Positions 484 to 46,533 of a stretch of 64,000 nucleotides of DNA are shown here, one piece after another (the stretch's first letter is position 1; each line of letters begins with the position of its first letter). The stretch is from NCBI GenBank assembly GCA_022827095.1, contig JAJDTP010000004.1, positions 186,001-250,000 of the forward strand, read 5' to 3'. Under the pieces are notes generated by a model that saw only the letters and a program-made list of their open reading frames with translations, searched no databases and had not been told where the DNA came from. Both the position numbers and the translations under genes were made by a program. This DNA comes from Dehalococcoidia bacterium. GTDB taxonomy: Bacteria > Chloroflexota > Dehalococcoidia > Lucifugimonadales > UBA3495.

Positions 484-1866
484 ATGGCGCTTTGGAGACC
501 CGACCCCACCTTTTACCCTTCGGCGCGGCTGGCGATGGAGGCTCCGCAGGAGCGTCTGGCCTACGTCGCCGTCCTCAACCCAGGTTCGGGCGAACCGGAC
601 GCGATGACCGTGGTGGACTGCGACCCCAACTCGGCCTCGTATTCCCAGGTGGTCCACTCGTTGGAAATGCCCAACGTGGGCGACGAGCTGCACCATTTCA
701 ACTGGAACGCCTGCAGCGCGGCGCTCTGCCCGTCTTCGGCTCATCCCCATCTGGAGCGTCGTTACCTGGTGGTTCCTAGCCTGGCCAACAGTCGCATCTA
801 CATCATCGACACGCAGCCCGACCCGGAGCGGCCGCGGATCGTCAAGACCATTGAGGCCGAACAGGTGCACCGGGCCGGCTACAGTCGACCCCATACCGTT
901 CACTGCGGGCCGGACGCGATTTACGTCAGCGCCCTGGGCTCCGCGGAAGGAGATCGCCCCGGGGGCATCATGCTGCTGGACCACTATACCTTCGAGCCCA
1001 TCGGGCCCTGGGAATTGGACCGCGGGCCGCAAGAACTGGCCTACGATTTCTGGTGGCACATCGGCATCGACACCATGATGACCAGCGAGTGGGGAACTCC
1101 TGAGATGTTCGAAAGCGGGGCCCGACTTGAGGACGTGGTTGGCCAGAATTATGGCCACGTCCTGCACTTCTGGGATATGCGCCGCCGCGCTCACCGCCAG
1201 GCAGTCGACCTGGGAGCGCAGCATCAGATGGCCCTGGAGCTGCGCCCGGCCCACAACCCGACCCGGCACTATGGCTTCTGCGGGGTGGTCGTGAGTACCG
1301 AGGACCTGTCGGGCTCAATCTTCCTGTGGCACCGCGACGGCGACCAGTGGGCCGCGACCAAGGTGATTTCCATCCCCGCCGAACCTGCCGACGCCTCGGA
1401 GTTGCCACCGGCGTTGCAGCCTTTAGGCGCGGTACCTCCCCTGATCACCGACATCGACCTGTCGCTGGACGACCGTTTCCTGTACATCTCGTGCTGGGGT
1501 ACCGGCAAGCTGCTGCAGTTCGACGTTTCGGACCCCTTCAACCCCAAGCAGACCGGCGAGTTGGAAATGGGTGGTGTCGTCCGCCAGGCTTCCCATCCCA
1601 ACGGAGTCGCCCTGACCGGCGGGCCGCAGATGGTGGAAATCAGTCGTGACGGTCGTCGGGTTTATCTCACCAATTCCCTGTATTCCTCCTGGGACGACCA
1701 GTTCTATCCTAACGGTCTGAACGGTTGGCTCAGCCGCATCGACGTGAACCCTGAGGGCGGGATGTCGGTCAACCCCGATTTCTTCGTCGATTACGGTAAG
1801 ACACGCACCCACCAGGTGCGGTTGCAGGGAGGCGACGCCTCGTCCGACACTTACTGCTTCCCATAA
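484..1866 (+). CDS. Selenium-binding protein SBP56 family / methanethiol oxidase
   Basis: Full-length SBP56 motifs (HHFNWNACSAALC, RRYLVVPSLANSRIYIIDT, YDFWWHIGIDTMMTSEWGTP, GRRVYLTNSLYSSWDDQFYP). Start chosen at MALWRPDPTF. Confidence 0.93.
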   Translation: MALWRPDPTFYPSARLAMEAPQERLAYVAVLNPGSGEPDAMTVVDCDPNSASYSQVVHSLEMPNVGDELHHFNWNACSAALCPSSAHPHLERRYLVVPSLANSRIYIIDTQPDPERPRIVKTIEAEQVHRAGYSRPHTVHCGPDAIYVSALGSAEGDRPGGIMLLDHYTFEPIGPWELDRGPQELAYDFWWHIGIDTMMTSEWGTPEMFESGARLEDVVGQNYGHVLHFWDMRRRAHRQAVDLGAQHQMALELRPAHNPTRHYGFCGVVVSTEDLSGSIFLWHRDGDQWAATKVISIPAEPADASELPPALQPLGAVPPLITDIDLSLDDRFLYISCWGTGKLLQFDVSDPFNPKQTGELEMGGVVRQASHPNGVALTGGPQMVEISRDGRRVYLTNSLYSSWDDQFYPNGLNGWLSRIDVNPEGGMSVNPDFFVDYGKTRTHQVRLQGGDASSDTYCFP

Positions 1867-1903
1867 GGGAGGCAATCACGTCGGCTTTTGGGCCGTCGGA
1901 GCG

Positions 1904-2623
1904 GTGATGCCGGCAGTGCTGCTGCACGCCCTCATCCCCGACCCGGCGGCCCTTGCCTCGCTGGGGCCGTGGCTGGGACTGGCGGCGCTGGGCCTGTTCC
2001 ACGGTCTGAACCCGGCTATGGGGTGGCTGTTCGCGGTGGCCCTGGCTTTGCAACGGCAACGTCCGATCCAGTTGTACACGGCCACGGGATACATCGCCGT
2101 CGGCCATTTGGCATCCGTGGCCGTGGTCATGGCGGCCCTGTTGCTGGCCGGCGCGTTCCTGCCGCTGCGGTGGGTGCGGATCGCCGCCGGCGCGATGTTG
2201 CTGGGGTTTGGCCTGCTCCGATTGGCGCTCTACTACCGGCATCCCCGGTGGGTGGGTATGAACGTGGACGGCCGGGACTTGCTCGTGTGGTCGTTTTTGA
2301 TGGCGACAGCTCACGGCGCAGGACTGATGCTGGCGCCCGTGGCGTTGGCCCTGACCGGACCGGGCGTTCAGTCGGGAATAGCCGGCGACCTGGGCGAGCA
2401 CGGCGGCTTTCTCTCCTTGGAGGACGCCCCGATATGGTGGCTGGCTGGTCTCCTGATGCACACCATAGTCATGCTTATCGCAATGTTGGCAGCAGCGGTG
2501 GTGGTCTATTATCGGGTCGGCCTGGCGTTTTTGCGCAGGGGGTGGATCAACCTTGACCTGCTGTGGGCCGGCTCTCTGGTCGCGGCCGGCCTGATCACGC
2601 TGGCATGGGCGCTGGCAGGTTAG
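1904..2623 (+). CDS. Polytopic membrane protein, possibly translationally linked to SBP56
   Basis: 239 aa with several hydrophobic helices; motif LGLFHGLNPAMGWLFAVALALQ; starts 38 bp after SBP56 stop. Confidence 0.7.
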   Translation: MMPAVLLHALIPDPAALASLGPWLGLAALGLFHGLNPAMGWLFAVALALQRQRPIQLYTATGYIAVGHLASVAVVMAALLLAGAFLPLRWVRIAAGAMLLGFGLLRLALYYRHPRWVGMNVDGRDLLVWSFLMATAHGAGLMLAPVALALTGPGVQSGIAGDLGEHGGFLSLEDAPIWWLAGLLMHTIVMLIAMLAAAVVVYYRVGLAFLRRGWINLDLLWAGSLVAAGLITLAWALAG

Positions 2624-2867
2624 CGGCCGATCCGGGGGCCGGCCGCTGCAAACGTGGGCGGATCGGTTCGGGTGTCTCGGTTGTCGGGCCGCCTGTCAAC
2701 AAGCTCAGCGGATGCTTTGCACGTCAAACTGTTCATGGATGGCCGGCTCAAGGGTTGCCTTGGCGGCGCCAGATCGTCAGGTATCGCGAGGCCCCAGGCC
2801 GGGCGTGGCGAAGTCTTCGTCACCGACCGGGCGGTATTGCACCCGGCGGGGTCCGGTCCGTTGGCCG

Positions 2868-3674
2868 TCAGTCGGCAGCCGCCGATGGGTATTCCGGCCG
2901 GCGGCGTTCCCGCAGCGCCGCCAGGCCCTCTTTCACGTCGTCGCCGAAGAAGCCCAGGGCCTCGGCCAACAGCGAGTAGTCGAAGGAGGTGTGGCCGGCC
3001 TGACGGAGCCATTGGTTCAGGGCGCGCTTGGTGAAGCGGATGGCGGGCTGGGGGCCGTCGGCCAGGCGGCGGGCCACGCGCATGGCAGTTTCCATAAGCT
3101 CATCGCGGGGAACGGCGATGCTGACCAGCCCGATGCGCTCCGCCTCCTTGCCGTCCAGGAAGTCGCAGGTGAGCAGGTAGTACTTGGCCTTGGCCATGCC
3201 GCAGAGCAGCGGCCAGATGATGGCGGCGTGGTCGCCGGCCGCGACGCCCAGGCGGATGTGCCCGTCGGTGATGCGGGCGTCCTCGGCGGCGATGGAGATG
3301 TCAGCCATGAGGGCGACGGCCAGCCCCGCGCCCACGGCCACGCCGTTGATGGCGGAGATGACCGGCTTGTCCAGGTTGAGGATGTTGTAGACGATGTCGC
3401 CGGCCTCTTTGGTGTTCTGGGCTACGATGGCCGGATTGTCGATGGCCTGCTCGATCATCTCGAAGTCGCCGCCGGCCGAGAACGCCTCGCCGGCGCCGGT
3501 GACCACGGCGACCCGAACCTCGGGATCGGCGCCAATGTCCAGCCAGATGCGGCTGAGCTCATTATGCAGGCGGAAGTTGGTGGAGTTCAGGGTCTCAGGA
3601 CGGTTCATCGTAAGGGTGATGATGCCGTCGGACTTTTCGATGAGCAGGTGCTGGTACGAGGAGTAATCGGTCAT
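2868..3674 (-). CDS. Enoyl-CoA hydratase/isomerase family protein
   Basis: Crotonase motifs: [38 protein letters not shown]. Start at [11 protein letters not shown]. Confidence 0.93.
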
Positions 3675-10254: not shown

Positions 10255-10364
10255 GTCAGAAGCAGGATTTTCAAGATTTGCGGATTATCAGGATTGGAGC
10301 CGTTATGTGCTGAAGATCTTCCAATCATGTCAAATCATGAAATCCCGTAAATCCTGCTTCTGAC
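10255..10364. repeat. CAGGATT-family inverted-repeat element, copy A
   Basis: GTCAGAAGCAGGATTTt...cgTAAATCCTGCTTCTGAC. Confidence 0.92.
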
Positions 10365-24381: not shown

Positions 24382-26100
24382 ATGGCCCGAATCAGCCGTC
24401 GGCAGTACGTGGACCTCTACGGCCCGACCGTGGGAGACCGGTTCCGGCTGGCCGACACGTCCCTGATCTGCCAGATCGAGCGGGACCTGCTCACCCACGG
24501 CGACGAGCTGGTGTTCGGCGGCGGCAAGTCGGCCCGGGACGGCATGGGGCAGGCTTCGGAGGTCACCAACCGCAACGGCGCGCTGGACCTGGTCATCACC
24601 AACGCCATCATCATGGACCCGGCTCTGGGCATCATCAAGGCCGACATCGGGGTGCGCCACGGGCACATCGTGGCGGTGGGCAAATCCGGCAACCCCGGCG
24701 TGATGGACGGCGTGCATCCCGACCTGGTGGTGGGGCCGGGCACCGAGGTCATCGCCGGCGAGCACCTGATCGCCACGCCCGGCGGGGTCGATGCGCACAT
24801 CCACATGATCGCGCCGCAGCAGGTGTACCACGCGCTGTCCAACGGCATCACCACCATGATCGGCGGGGGCACCGGGCCGGCCGACGGCACCAACGCCACC
24901 ACCTGCACGCCGGGCCCGTGGAACATCGCGCGGATGCTGGAGGCCGCCGAGCCGCTGCCGGTCAACTGGGGCCTACTGGGCAAAGGCAACGCCAGCGACC
25001 CGGCTCCCCTGGAGGAGCAGATCGCCGCCGGGGCCAGCGGCCTCAAGCTCCACGAGGACTGGGGCACCACGCCGGCGGCCATCGATTGCTGCCTGGCCGT
25101 GGCCGACCGGTTCGACGTGCCGGTGGCGATCCATACGGACACGCTGAACGAGGCCGGGTTCGTGGAGGACGCCATCGCGGCCATCGGTGGGCGGGCCATC
25201 CACACCTACCACACCGAGGGCGCCGGCGGTGGCCACGCGCCGGACATCATCCGCATTGCGTCCGAGTTGAACGTGCTGCCGTCGTCCACCAACCCCACGC
25301 GTCCCTACACCGTCAACACCCTCACCGAGCACATGGACATGCTGATGGTGTGCCACCACCTCAGCCCGCGGGTTCCCGAGGACGTGGCCTTTGCCGAGAG
25401 CCGCATCCGGCCGGAGACCATGGCCGCCGAGGACGTGCTGCACGACCTGGGGGTCATCAGCATGTACGCGTCGGACTCGCAAGCCATGGGGCGGGTGGGC
25501 GAGAACTTCACCCGGCTGTTCCAGACGGCGGACAAGATGCGGCAGTTCAAGGGCAAGCTGCCCGAGGACTCGCCGGACCACGACAACTTCCGCGTCCTGC
25601 GCTACCTGGCCAAGCTGACCATCAACCCGGCCATCACCCACGGCATCTCTCACCTGGTGGGCTCGCTGGAACCGGGCAAGCTGGCGGACATCGTGCTGTG
25701 GCCGCTGGGCAGCTTCGGCGCGAAACCCAAGCTGATCATCAAGGGCGGCATGATCTGCTGGGCGGTCATGGGCGACCCCAACGGCTCCATACCCACCGCC
25801 GAGCCGTCGTTCTATCGACCCATGTTCGGCGCAATGGGCAAGGCGGTGACGAATACGTCGCTCACCTTCGTCTCCCAGGCGGCCTACGACGCGGGAGTTC
25901 ACCGCGGTCTGGGGCTGACCCGGCGGGTCGAGCCGGTGCGCAATTGCCGCGCCATCACCAAGCGGCAGATGGTGCGCAACGACGGGATGCCGGTGATCGA
26001 GGTCGACCCGGACACCTACACGGTGCGCGTGGACGGCGAGATCGCCACCGTGCCGCCCGCAGAGCGGCTCAGCCTGGCACAACTGCACTTCCTGGTGTAG
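24382..26100 (+). CDS. ureC: Urease alpha subunit
   Basis: [70 protein letters not shown]. Confidence 0.98.
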
Positions 26101-33962: not shown

Positions 33963-34030
33963 CATGGGTGAACAGGATGTTCGGGATCATGGATCCAGTA
34001 TCCGTATCCCGTCCATCCTATTTATCCATG
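33963..34030. repeat. CAGGAT-type inverted-repeat element, divergent short variant
   Basis: CATGGgtgaAcAGGATGttCGGGAT ... ATCCCGtcCATCCTatttaTCCATG. Confidence 0.7.
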
Positions 34031-34055
34031 CCGATTTAACTACGGAGGTGACTCG

Positions 34056-40907: not shown

Positions 40908-42902
40908 TCAGCCCAGCAGTTCCTGGACCGCCTCCTCGACCGCGGCGCCCTCGGATGACTCGCGGAGCCACTTGCGCAACTCGCGGCGGGCGATGGTCAC
41001 GGTCAGCTTGTCGCCACGCTCGGCGCGCAGTTGCTCCAGCCGTTCCGCTGCGCCGGCCGCCGCCTGCTCCCCGGCATCGGATATGCGAGCGTGGAGTGTG
41101 TCTGCGGAGTCGAACTCGGGGATTGGCAACTTCCAGAGGTGCTTGTGCAGGTGGCGCGCCCCGAACTGCCCTTTGGACATCAGGGGTTGCACCGCTTCAT
41201 ACAGAGCGTCACTGTTGATAATTGCAAGCAAATAGTTGGCTTCATGCATGTCTTTGCAAGGAAGCCAATATAACGTTTCGTCGACGATTGCATCGTGGTC
41301 TACGAGAATTGCTGCTGTCGGTACACCCGCTTCAGTTTGCACAACCCGGATCGGTCTACCGCCTGAGCGGTGTTGCCAATGCAACTGTGATGACAGCTTC
41401 CCGTAGTGGTCTAGATTTTCAACGAGATTTAGCTTGTTTGCCGGCGCTTTGTTCTCTTCCCAAATGTCGTTGATGACTTGCCACCGTCTCCGCATCCGCC
41501 GGTCCAAACCGTCGAGCCGAATGCCGCCAGGCCCTTCGGGTTGCGTAGGAAGTTGGTACTCACCCCGTCGCACCGGTAACACAGCTCGCAGCGGTTTCAG
41601 AGTCACAAATGGCACCACCGTTTCGCCTAGATATACGTCGTACAAATGCTTGCGCTCAACAGTCTGTTCGGTAATCGAGGTCAATTTCAAGGTACGCCAG
41701 GGCACCTTATCCTGAGAACCTTCGCGCGGGTTAACGGTTATCGTCTGCCCCGCCTGCACGACGGCCGTATTCTCGGCTTCCTCCACGAATATTAACCGCC
41801 GTGGCCGGATTGGCGCGCCTTGCCGCGCGTGGACAGCGTAGGGTGAATCTCCACTCCCTGACGTATCGGTGATGGTGCTGGACACTCGGCGCACTTCGTC
41901 GGTGCCCGTCGCGCCCTCCCAACGTTCGGCTGATCCGCCCAGGTGCGTTCCGTCGGTGTTCTCCCCAACTCGTTCGGCAAAAACCACGCAGGCGGGGATG
42001 GGAAAGAAGGTGTTGGGATCCAACCGCTCCAAGTCCCACGAGGTCTTGTGTCCGAAATCAACCGCCAAGGTGCGCACAACCGTCTTACTCAGGTTGCCTT
42101 TTGGCGTGAAACTGCGCTGCTCCCATTTACCGGTGCGCCACTTAGCGTACTGACCAGCCTGCAACGCACTGTGGGGCAGCACCATGCCGATCCTGCCACC
42201 GTCCGTGAGGTACAGGTCAACACTGCGAGCATAGAAAAGGCCGGCCACGTCCTGGTTGCTGGCGTAGCGTCCGCCCTGCCAGATGCCGTACAGGCTCTTG
42301 CTCTGCCTTTCCAGCTCATCGCGGAGGATGTCGGCAGTCTGGTTGTAGTTGAGCCAGGGCGGGTTGCCGATGATCACGTCGACTTTCGTGCGGCCCAGGG
42401 CGACGGGGCGGACCAGGTTGCGGGTGTAGTAGGCCCAGATGTGGTTGCGGCCCTCGTCGTGGAGGCGTTGCAGGGTGGCGATGGTGGCGGCCAGGGTCTG
42501 CCGCTCGTTGGGATCATCGATGCCGTGGTCGTCCAGGGCGATCAGGGGATCGTCGCCGGCCTCGATGTCGGCGGCGACCTGGCTCATCAGGGAGTCGAAG
42601 GTGTCGGCGCGGTCCACCAGGGAGATGGGGAAGGTCAGCTCGGAGTTGGCGTCGTCATCCACCTGGATGGTGACCTGCTGGCCGGCGAAGAGGTCGCCGG
42701 CGTTGAACCGCAGTTGCAGGGCGTCGCCCAGGTAGACGGGCACGGATCCGGAGGCGTCGTAGCCGGCGTTGACCACGGCCTCGATGGCGGGCCGCGCGGC
42801 CAGGGCCCAGGCGGCGCGGGCCAGGTGGACGGCCACCGGGTGCACGTCGATGCCGGTGACGGCGACGCGCAGGCGGTCGAGCAGTTCCTTGGGTTCAAGC
42901 AT
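40908..42902 (-). pseudogene. C-terminal part of a Type IIG-like restriction-modification protein (N6-adenine MTase motif IV + target-recognition region)
   Basis: GIDVHPVAVHLARAAWALA; motif IV DVIIGNPPWLNYNQ; same frame as 43005-44174 (offset 2097 = 3x699). Confidence 0.85.
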
Positions 42903-42911
42903 CCCTGAGTT

Positions 42912-43021
42912 GTCAGAAGCAGAATTTGCCGGATTGTCGGGATGTTCAGGATTGAGTTCGCGTGGACTGCCGGCGTGCCCAATCCCGCTAATCCCGTAAT
43001 CCCGCTAATCCTGCTTCTGAC
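42912..43021. repeat. CAGGATT-family inverted-repeat element, copy F, inside the restriction-modification gene
   Basis: GTCAGAAGCAGAATTTgccgg...gctAATCCTGCTTCTGAC; read on the minus strand it supplies codons ...QKQD-TAG. Confidence 0.92.
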
Positions 43022-44174
43022 GATTCACCGCCGCCGCCAGGAAATGCCGCACCGCCTCGGCGATGAAGGTTCCGGAGCCGCAGGCGGGGTCCAGGACGCG
43101 CTGTTGCAACGGGTCGTCCACCAGCTCCGTGACCATGGCCCGGGCCAGCCAGGCCGGCGTGTAGTACTCGCCCAGGGTGCGGCGTTCGTCGGGCGGGATG
43201 ACGGCCTCGTAGAGGATGGCGGCGATGTCGGGTGGCGCGTTCTGCCAGTCGAACCGGGCCACGCGGCGGGCCAGGGCCCTCAGGAGGTCGTGTCCGCCCA
43301 CCTCGTCGGGCCAGGCGAAGAAGTCCGACTCGATGATGCCGCTGAGTCCGGTGGCGTCGCGGAAGCGCCGGCCCTGGAGCAGGTCGGACGGTTCGATTTC
43401 GGCCAACTGCCGCAGGTCGATGCCGAAGGAGGCCTGGACGGCCATGCCGATGACCAGGCTGAGGTAGGTGTGCCGGATGAACAGGTGATCGAGCTCGGCG
43501 GGGTCGCGGGCGATTTCGCCCAGGGCGGCGCGCAGCAGGTTCTCCCACAGCCGGCGCTTGACCTTGACGGTCTCGTACTGGGCGGCCTGATCGTACAGGC
43601 GGGCGAGGACGTCGATGTCGCGCTGGTAGGTCGGGCTGCCCGGCCCCAGGTACTGCTCCACGTTGGAACGGTCCGCCGGGATGCTTTCCAGCGATATGAG
43701 GGCGCTGTCCCGCAGCCACTCGTAGAGCAGCAGCCACTTATCCGCCGCATCCAGGACGAAACCGTAGGGCGGCGACGTACGCACTTCCCTGGCCTCGGGC
43801 CAGCGCAGCAGCCAGTACCTGCCGTCGGTGAGGATACCGGTGCGGACGCCGTGACCCTCGGACTTTGACTCGTTCAGATAGTCGTCCAACTGCTGGACGT
43901 TGGCCGGATCGGGGTCGAAGCCCTCGTTGGTGCCGATGCGACGCTTGACCTCGATGAAAGTGTCCAGGGCCGTCAGGTCGACGGCGCGCCGGCTGTGATC
44001 GCTGGGCGGGTTCTCCTCAACGATCTCTTCGGCCCGGGCCAGCCCGGTCTCACGGAGGAAATCGCGTACGGCGGTGGTGATGTTGGCCTCGGGTTCATTG
44101 TTCTCGTGCCGGTGCAGGATGGAGGCTGCCGCTTCCCGGTACTTCGGGTCGTTAATGTCGAGGTGGGTGGTCAT
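43005..44174 (-). pseudogene. N-terminal part of a Type IIG-like restriction-modification protein (PD-(D/E)XK nuclease-like + MTase motif I)
   Basis: [18 protein letters not shown] (D...ExK); LGEYYTPAWLARAMV; motif I RVLDPACGSGTFIAEAVRHFLAAAVN then repeat-encoded RQKQD*. Start at MTTHLDIND. Confidence 0.85.
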
Positions 44175-44197
44175 GGGCCGATTGTAGCATCGGGGAC

Positions 44198-44226
44198 GGG
44201 ATTGCCACGCTGCGCTCGCAACGACA
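44198..44226. repeat. CATTGCGAG-family repeat, half copy
   Basis: GGGATTGCCACGCTGCGCTCGCAACGACA. Confidence 0.7.
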
Positions 44227-44297
44227 AAGCGGGGGTAGGGCACGGGCTGCCTGTGCTAAACTGGCCCAAACTCAGCCAAACTGGCCAGGACATCACC

Positions 44298-45308: not shown

Positions 45309-45614
45309 ATGTACACCTTTGACGTTCTGGTTTGGGAAGGCGAGTTGTCCGACGGTTCGACCTGCTACGCGGCGTGGTGCTCGTACGTGTATGGAGTATG
45401 GGGGCAAGGCGACACAGAGGAGGAAGCTCTGACAGAAGTCAGGTTGATGATAACTGACGTCATAGAAGATCCAGCAGACCTGGCCGAAAGCCTGGTCGAC
45501 TCCAAGGCGGCAGCAGCGGAAATCGCGGACATGATCCGCGAACGCGAGGCCGAAGGAATCTCCTGCTGGGTACGGCAAGTATCCGTTGCAGACCCCGAAC
45601 TGGCCGGCGTCTGA
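45309..45614 (+). CDS. HicB-like antitoxin, copy 1
   Basis: MYTFDVLVWEGELSDGSTCYAAWCSYVYGVWGQGDTEEEALTEVRLMITDVIEDP; paired with HicA-like ORF. Confidence 0.75.
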   Translation: MYTFDVLVWEGELSDGSTCYAAWCSYVYGVWGQGDTEEEALTEVRLMITDVIEDPADLAESLVDSKAAAAEIADMIREREAEGISCWVRQVSVADPELAGV

Positions 45615-45886
45615 TGCCGCGATACGCCAATGTGAGGCCAACGGAACTTCACCGTTTGCTGTCGCGGATGGGATTCATCGAAACCGCAAGAAATCACCAT
45701 CGCCACTATCACCATGATGGGCTTGGTCTCCGCACCCGGGTATCTTTCGGGAATAAGGAAATCGACGCGGATACCATGGGCGACATCATCACCAAGCAGC
45801 TACGCATGACGGTCGACGAGTTTCGCGAAGCACTGAGCGGCAATATACCGGAACGGTTCACCAATCCGGAGCATTGGAACGAGTAG
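45614..45886 (+). CDS. HicA-like toxin, copy 1
   Basis: MPRYANVRPTELHRLLSRMGFIETARNHHRHYHHDGLGLRTRVSFGNKEIDADTMGDIITKQLRMTVDEF. Confidence 0.82.
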   Translation: MPRYANVRPTELHRLLSRMGFIETARNHHRHYHHDGLGLRTRVSFGNKEIDADTMGDIITKQLRMTVDEFREALSGNIPERFTNPEHWNE

Positions 45887-45955
45887 CATTGGAAGTCGGT
45901 TGCTTGGGCACCCGTTCGCACGTAGCGCGGCGACAGGCTAAAGCGAGATCACAAC

Positions 45956-46261
45956 ATGCACACCTTTGAAGTACTGGTTTGGGAAGATCCATCGGAGGAT
46001 GGATCCATGGGATATGGAGCGTGGTGCTCCTACGTCGTAGGAGTATGGGGGCAGGGGGATACGGAAGAAGAGGCTTTGGCGGATATCACTTCGGTGATGA
46101 CGGATGTAATCCTGCACCCGTGGGATGATGGCGTTTCTTTGGCAAATGCCGAGGAAGCCGCGACCGAAATGGCCGGGATCATCGAGGAGCTTTTATCTGA
46201 GGGTATCCCTTACAAGATGCACCAGGTATCGATCTCGACTGAACTACCCGCCAGCGTCTGA
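45956..46261 (+). CDS. HicB-like antitoxin, copy 2
   Basis: MHTFEVLVWEDPSEDGSMGYGAWCSYVVGVWGQGDTEEEALADITSVMTDVI; paralogue of 45309-45614. Confidence 0.75.
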   Translation: MHTFEVLVWEDPSEDGSMGYGAWCSYVVGVWGQGDTEEEALADITSVMTDVILHPWDDGVSLANAEEAATEMAGIIEELLSEGIPYKMHQVSISTELPASV

Positions 46262-46533
46262 TGCCGCGATACGCCAATGTCCGGCCGCGTGAGCTACGAC
46301 GTTTACTAGCCAGGATGGGGTTCGTCGAAACCGCCCACAACGATCATTGGCGTTATCGTCACCCGGGCCTCGGCTTACGTACTAAAGTGTCCTTTGGCAA
46401 CCAAGAGATCCGAGCGGCCTTGATGGGCGAAATTATCACTACACAGCTAGGCATGACCGTTAACGAGTTTCGCGAAGCTATGAACGGGAATATCCCGGAA
46501 CGGTTTACCAACCCTGCATTCTGGAACAACTAG
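46261..46533 (+). CDS. HicA-like toxin, copy 2
   Basis: MPRYANVRPRELRRLLARMGFVETAHNDHWRYRHPGLGLRTKVSFGNQEIRAALMGEIITTQLGMTVNEF; paralogue of 45614-45886. Confidence 0.82.
   Translation: MPRYANVRPRELRRLLARMGFVETAHNDHWRYRHPGLGLRTKVSFGNQEIRAALMGEIITTQLGMTVNEFREAMNGNIPERFTNPAFWNN

Follow-up and report, generated by a model that had tools for sequence, protein, structure and literature searches.

Until now, most examples of palindromic repeats read in frame within genes have come from Rickettsia, Wolbachia and REP-rich proteobacteria. The Rickettsia palindromic elements are palindromes of 105–146 bp, lying between genes and, in some cases, in frame inside conserved genes; one gene product carrying such an element is still an active enzyme (PMC2229807). 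Among REP sequences, different ones are found at about the same recB site in two Xanthomonas species, and the CGTC REPs have no dedicated transposase (PMC3733652). A phase-variable Type IIG gene of Campylobacter jejuni can be switched off (PMC4889913).

Here we analyse a Type IIG-like gene, C14, in a window of 64,000 nucleotides (the whole stretch of DNA examined) from a Dehalococcoidia genome, G000, and named after its contig in that genome. The gene is split by one TAG within a palindromic element, here called type A. As with the Rickettsia elements, to which it is likened by behaviour and not by family assignment, type A is a dispersed palindrome found in frame in a conserved gene, which stays open in a paralogue, C21; it differs from them in belonging to another phylum, in sharing one loop with several other repeat types, and in the single stop gained by its C14 copy. 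Unlike the GTAG and CGTC REPs, it is longer, consists of 9-nt AGGATT-type units and has no CGTC or GTAG stem-loop; of the two further repeats that the relative G001C9 has in this loop, the second is similar to a CGTC REP dimer, and in this recalls the CGTC REPs within coding genes. The enzyme itself is organized like the Type IIG/IIL enzymes MmeI, DrdV and BpuSI, with nuclease, helical, N6-adenine methyltransferase and recognition parts in one chain, but the C14 chain is interrupted, and sequence identity to these enzymes is low (10–13%). Compared with the C. jejuni gene, the change in C14 is of a different kind, being a nonsense substitution in a dispersed repeat, seen in the one assembly that represents G000 (3.79 Mb in 35 contigs, 97.65% complete).

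The interrupted gene and its element

An earlier note on this DNA had described two open reading frames, 43005–44243 and 40908–42902, both on the reverse strand, as parts of one gene. They do share one frame, with 2097 nt from stop to stop, and the 34 codons from the TAG to the ATG at 42902 contain no further stop. When the TAG is read as X, a single frame of 1,088 residues results from the ATG at 44174, which, being the start used in relatives, is probably the true one, rather than the GTG at 44243. Motif I, the NPPW motif and D...EVK were likewise recovered where they had been placed (Table 1).

Table 1. Features of C14 and its surroundings (window coordinates)
Feature	Position	Strand	Evidence
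5' half: PD-(D/E)XK-like nuclease region, helical region, methyltransferase motif I; ends at TAG	43005..44174	-	
PD-(D/E)XK-like D66...E75-V-K77	43944..43979	-	sequence; model beta strands 65-69, 72-76
Motif I DPACGSGTF	43065..43091	-	sequence; Pfam N6_Mtase 5.3e-13
Type A palindromic element, copy F (GTCAGAAGCAGGATT ... AATTCTGCTTCTGAC, gene orientation)	42912..43021	-	
In-frame TAG within the element, derived; C21 has TTT	43005..43007	-	
Recombination segment common to C14 and paralogue C21	42878..43060	-	23/25 informative sites; 0/20,000 permutations as good
3' half: remaining methyltransferase and target-recognition/C-terminal part; in-frame ATG 42902 directly after the element	40908..42902	-	
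Motif II-type GIDVHP (strand beta 2 and its end)	42837..42854	-	
Motif IV NPPW	42354..42365	-	
Further type A element (copy E), just past the C14 stop codon	40769..40878	+	

C14 is matched by the Pfam families N6_Mtase (5e-13) and Eco57I (2e-8), and by the PADLOC Type IIG model (6e-55), the best stretch of which is the methyltransferase part. Motif I and the NPPW motif IV of N6-adenine methyltransferases fall within one fold, as expected of a Type IIG restriction-modification enzyme, both in the read-through frame of C14 and in the intact C21. The N-terminal nuclease, for which a Pfam search of C14 returned no domain, is suggested by the D...EVK motif on adjacent strands of the structure model. 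We call C14 Type IIG-like, cutting and methylation being predicted functions.

The structure model, built for the read-through frame with the TAG as a residue and with 49 relatives, has a mean pLDDT of 86, and a fold search with it matches CamA, DrdV, MmeI and BpuSI. The insert site is the loop that follows the helix behind motif I and leads to the short helix preceding motif II. Residues 399–423, with a pLDDT of about 42, lie between helices 369–394 and 428–438 and leave the fold intact; the insert is accordingly predicted to be a disordered stretch in a surface loop.

Besides copy F, the window holds the five further full copies of type A reported in the earlier note (at 10255, 14742, 18293, 23837 and 40769). 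At least 40 loci are found in the whole of G000, a figure far beyond chance and, like the other element counts per genome, a lower bound, obtained by scoring the best candidates. Among 60 relatives, 14 genomes carry the element; they belong to four genera, and most of them to that of the window. It begins GTCAGAAGC, is a palindrome with clear inverted ends, and as RNA would fold at -67.8 kcal/mol (z -7.2); comparison of arm complementarity within and between copies was dropped, being confounded by the unequal spacing and orientation of the units. Searches of Rfam with the element, of plasmids, and of the literature for the letters of the repeat gave no match. Mobilization by a RAYT was dismissed, as a search for the Y1 transposase (PF01797) found none in G000, while the control genomes gave matches.

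The other candidate type A copies inside genes, at L082 (upstream of an ilvC-type domain), L085, L073 and L080, appear intergenic or unproven. Copy E adjoins a gene for a Uma2 nuclease, a domain (PF05685) present 83 times in the 3.8 Mb of G000 and not significantly close to the elements; an association of the element with such genes was discarded, as the 6 of 40 copies no more than 2 kb away compare with an expectation of 2.9 (p 0.08). A type A copy is also found just upstream of C21 (L038, 7198–7305), mirrored by copy E just downstream of C14.

Insertion, probable spread to a paralogue and later origin of the stop

The distance between motif I (PxCGSGxF) and motif II (GIDxHPx) was measured in 80 loci fetched from genome collections; related loci belong to Dehalococcoidia, SAR202 and other Chloroflexota genome bins, some of them, going by their names, presumably sponge-derived. 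The spacing is 46 residues in 59 of the 80 loci, which span Chloroflexota, Latescibacterota, Actinomycetota and Cyanobacteria; a further 12, distant loci have a spacing of 40. In C14 and C21 it is 85, which identifies the element as an insertion. The two ends flanking it are adjacent in the relatives with the 46-residue spacing, and this bears out the proposal that an ancestral Type IIG-like enzyme took up the element in frame. The net gain of C14 is 117 nt (39 codons), made up of the 110-bp repeat, not itself a multiple of 3, and 7 nt. Judged as a possible MITE, the element has the inverted ends, and comparison with the nearest empty site, that of G008 (AAKPSPLDPKELLDRL), revealed no clear target-site duplication.

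Homologues in which two natural genes meet at the C14 site were not found. Half-length reading frames at G010:C58, G001:C38 and G001:C1 were set aside because they run to contig ends, and C11, a more distant Type IIG paralogue of G000 (L091, G000:C11:289800-293400; 130-1926 + 1709-3439), because it is broken at another site, by a frameshift near residue 555. Together with the TAG of C14, this frameshift brings to at least two the interrupted Type IIG genes of G000.

C21, the second gene of the same genome, is 66% identical to C14 and free of stops over its 1,103 codons. Its type A element sits precisely where that of C14 does and is 90% identical to it, while the other copies of the same length that were compared reach at most about 75% identity to either. 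The tree, which includes homologues from relatives of the same genus, places C14 in subclade 1 with G001C9, G010C8, G008 and G007b (support 100/99 and 97/94), and C21 in subclade 2, where it is closest to G001C45 over most of the gene (mostly 79–96% identity in the N-terminal part outside the segment considered next). Over the segment listed in Table 1, C21 departs from its own subclade and matches C14, G001C9, G008 or G010C8, and proxy donors from other subclade-1 genes yield nearly the same tract. These comparisons reveal a recombination tract between a C14-type gene and C21. The element thus arrived in C21 by recombination with some 35–40 bp of flank on each side, and the transfer would have run from the window's subclade to C21. 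The bounds of the tract rest on G001C45, the nearest relative, as reference, because G006C94 picked a different stretch (nt 1–118, 3/3000) and G010C65 a wider one (43158–42822).

The suggestion that the element brought the stop along is not supported, as C21 has the same element copy open. Where C14 has TAG, C21 has TTT, nearly all repeat copies differ from C14, and the A that the TAG needs at element position 16 occurs in 2 of 64 arms. The TAG is thus derived and later than the insertion, and in C14 the order of events, as read from these sequences, would be insertion first and nonsense mutation afterwards. Relative to TTT, the C14 copy has two adjacent substitutions in its first variable spacer. 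A tandem-repeat search finds the first array unit of C14 now identical to the third (GGATTAGCGGGATT twice), so that local copying from the third unit onto the first may perhaps have made the stop.

Present state of C14

The reading we favour, with a probability of roughly 0.6 for the account as a whole, starts from the in-frame insertion of a dispersed palindrome of about 110 bp into the surface loop after motif I of a Type IIG-like enzyme. The insert would at first have been readable, probably as a disordered linker of about 39 residues; it counts against this initial readability that C21 is the only copy to show the element open, and that a full-length copy is stop-free in a given frame just 13% of the time. 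With its short flanks, the insert would then have moved from the subclade of C14 to C21 by homologous recombination, and the substitution of TTT by TAG would later have turned C14 into an OFF allele, the product of which, if started at ATG 44174, would be a 389-residue fragment ending after motif I. Of the three fates offered for the gene in the earlier note, inactivation is in our judgement the likeliest, C14 being most likely a recent null allele.

Neither half of C14 shows decay: dN/dS against G001C9 is 0.175 before the stop and 0.173 after it, resembling intact pairs, and in the methyltransferase core beyond the TAG all 16 changes private to C14 are synonymous, with 0 nonsynonymous. Either the stop is recent, then, or the 3' half continues to be produced, and the strong purifying selection downstream would also fit translation as a second protein. 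The two halves might in that case be produced separately, by a restart behind the hairpin, and reassembled into a split enzyme: the ATG at 42902 is the first in-frame start, right behind the element, and the break falls in a loop modelled as disordered and exposed. This ATG, however, has no spaced Shine-Dalgarno sequence, an AGGG abutting it directly, and the restart would have to occur about 100 nt beyond the stop; moreover, no homologue was found with separate natural half-genes at the site, and the sole other broken gene examined, C11, is frameshifted elsewhere. We hold such a split enzyme to be improbable. Slightly less so, and still unlikely, is that the TAG is a sequencing or assembly error and the real gene open like C21; the integrity of both halves would then be expected, and an element built of 9-nt units and present in more than 40 copies is a place where assemblers and polishing can err, but the C14 copy is distinct from all others except that of C21, and the difference consists of two adjacent substitutions and not of a homopolymer indel.

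Amber readthrough to a full-length enzyme, another of the fates proposed, found no support and is in our view very improbable. In its favour, the TAG is the single stop in 1,088 codons; against it, no tRNA with a CTA anticodon is present among the 54 tRNA matches in this 97.65% complete genome, and TAG, which ends 33 of 71 coding-like reading frames, is the commonest stop in the sample. The loop might also act as a true ON/OFF switch, the stop being gained and lost time and again through conversion, either inside the array or between C14 and its paralogue C21. The recombination tract joining the two paralogues and the 9-nt and 21-nt tandem arrays of the loop are compatible with such a device, and copying of one array unit onto another could create a stop; the units, however, are whole codons, so that slippage keeps the frame, and we give this idea little credence.

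Other repeats in the same loop

The loop is lengthened by other material in four further genes of subclade 1, three of which carry other dispersed repeats. Motifs I and II are 122 residues apart in G001C9, 68 in G010C8 and 58 in G007b, and the gains of C14, G001C9, G010C8 and G007b (39, 76, 22 and 12 codons, respectively) all preserve the frame. In G001C9 the loop contains first the left arm of type B, a second dispersed repeat (GCATGGATG...), then a CGTC-REP-like palindrome and finally five tandem LEPKELL units, the last being 21-bp units at L039 1574–1670, on the 3' side of the loop. Type B is also found in the loop of G010C8 and in that of G006C31, a gene left out of the tree for its shortness and damage, and assigned to subclade 1 by its 80–91% identity alone; here the reading frame ends in TGA right after the repeat (L045, reverse strand, about 310–250), unrelated sequence following. 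Its 5' part is damaged too. The extra stretch of G007b is non-repetitive.

Type B gives 18–66 matches in each of seven genomes of the same genus and one in G008, a control search with the reversed pattern giving none; the CGTC-REP-like palindrome represents a third family, for which a first look gave between 33 and 217 candidates per genome. At least two insertions, of the window's type and of the CGTC-like type, appear independent; whether the number is two or three is uncertain, because the type B repeats of the three relatives may be one insertion common by descent.

Several repeat families thus strike one loop of a defence gene within one Chloroflexota genus and, as far as sequences and model indicate, this is a permissive surface loop repeatedly gaining in-frame repeats. 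More tentatively, it may be a hot spot, at which at least two and perhaps three unrelated palindromic families insert in frame and spread between paralogues by very short, insert-centred tracts; if so, mobile repeats would keep supplying a defence gene with new linkers and with ON/OFF alleles. The empty site, the open copy, the stopped copy and the truncated copy form a natural comparison series, in which one may ask whether repeats choose the site or selection retains those falling in a tolerant loop, and which also bears on how a Type IIG gene gets switched off.

The window itself contains a copy of type B, apparently intergenic and with 9-nt GGAT units, at 33963–34031 (GCATGGGTG... / ...TTATCCATGC). 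It also holds, at 24543–24832 on the reverse strand, an Rfam match to 5_ureB_sRNA (57 bits), unexpected there, and, at 45309–46533, two tandem gene pairs, about 70% identical at the DNA level, which we take to be HicB/HicA-like.
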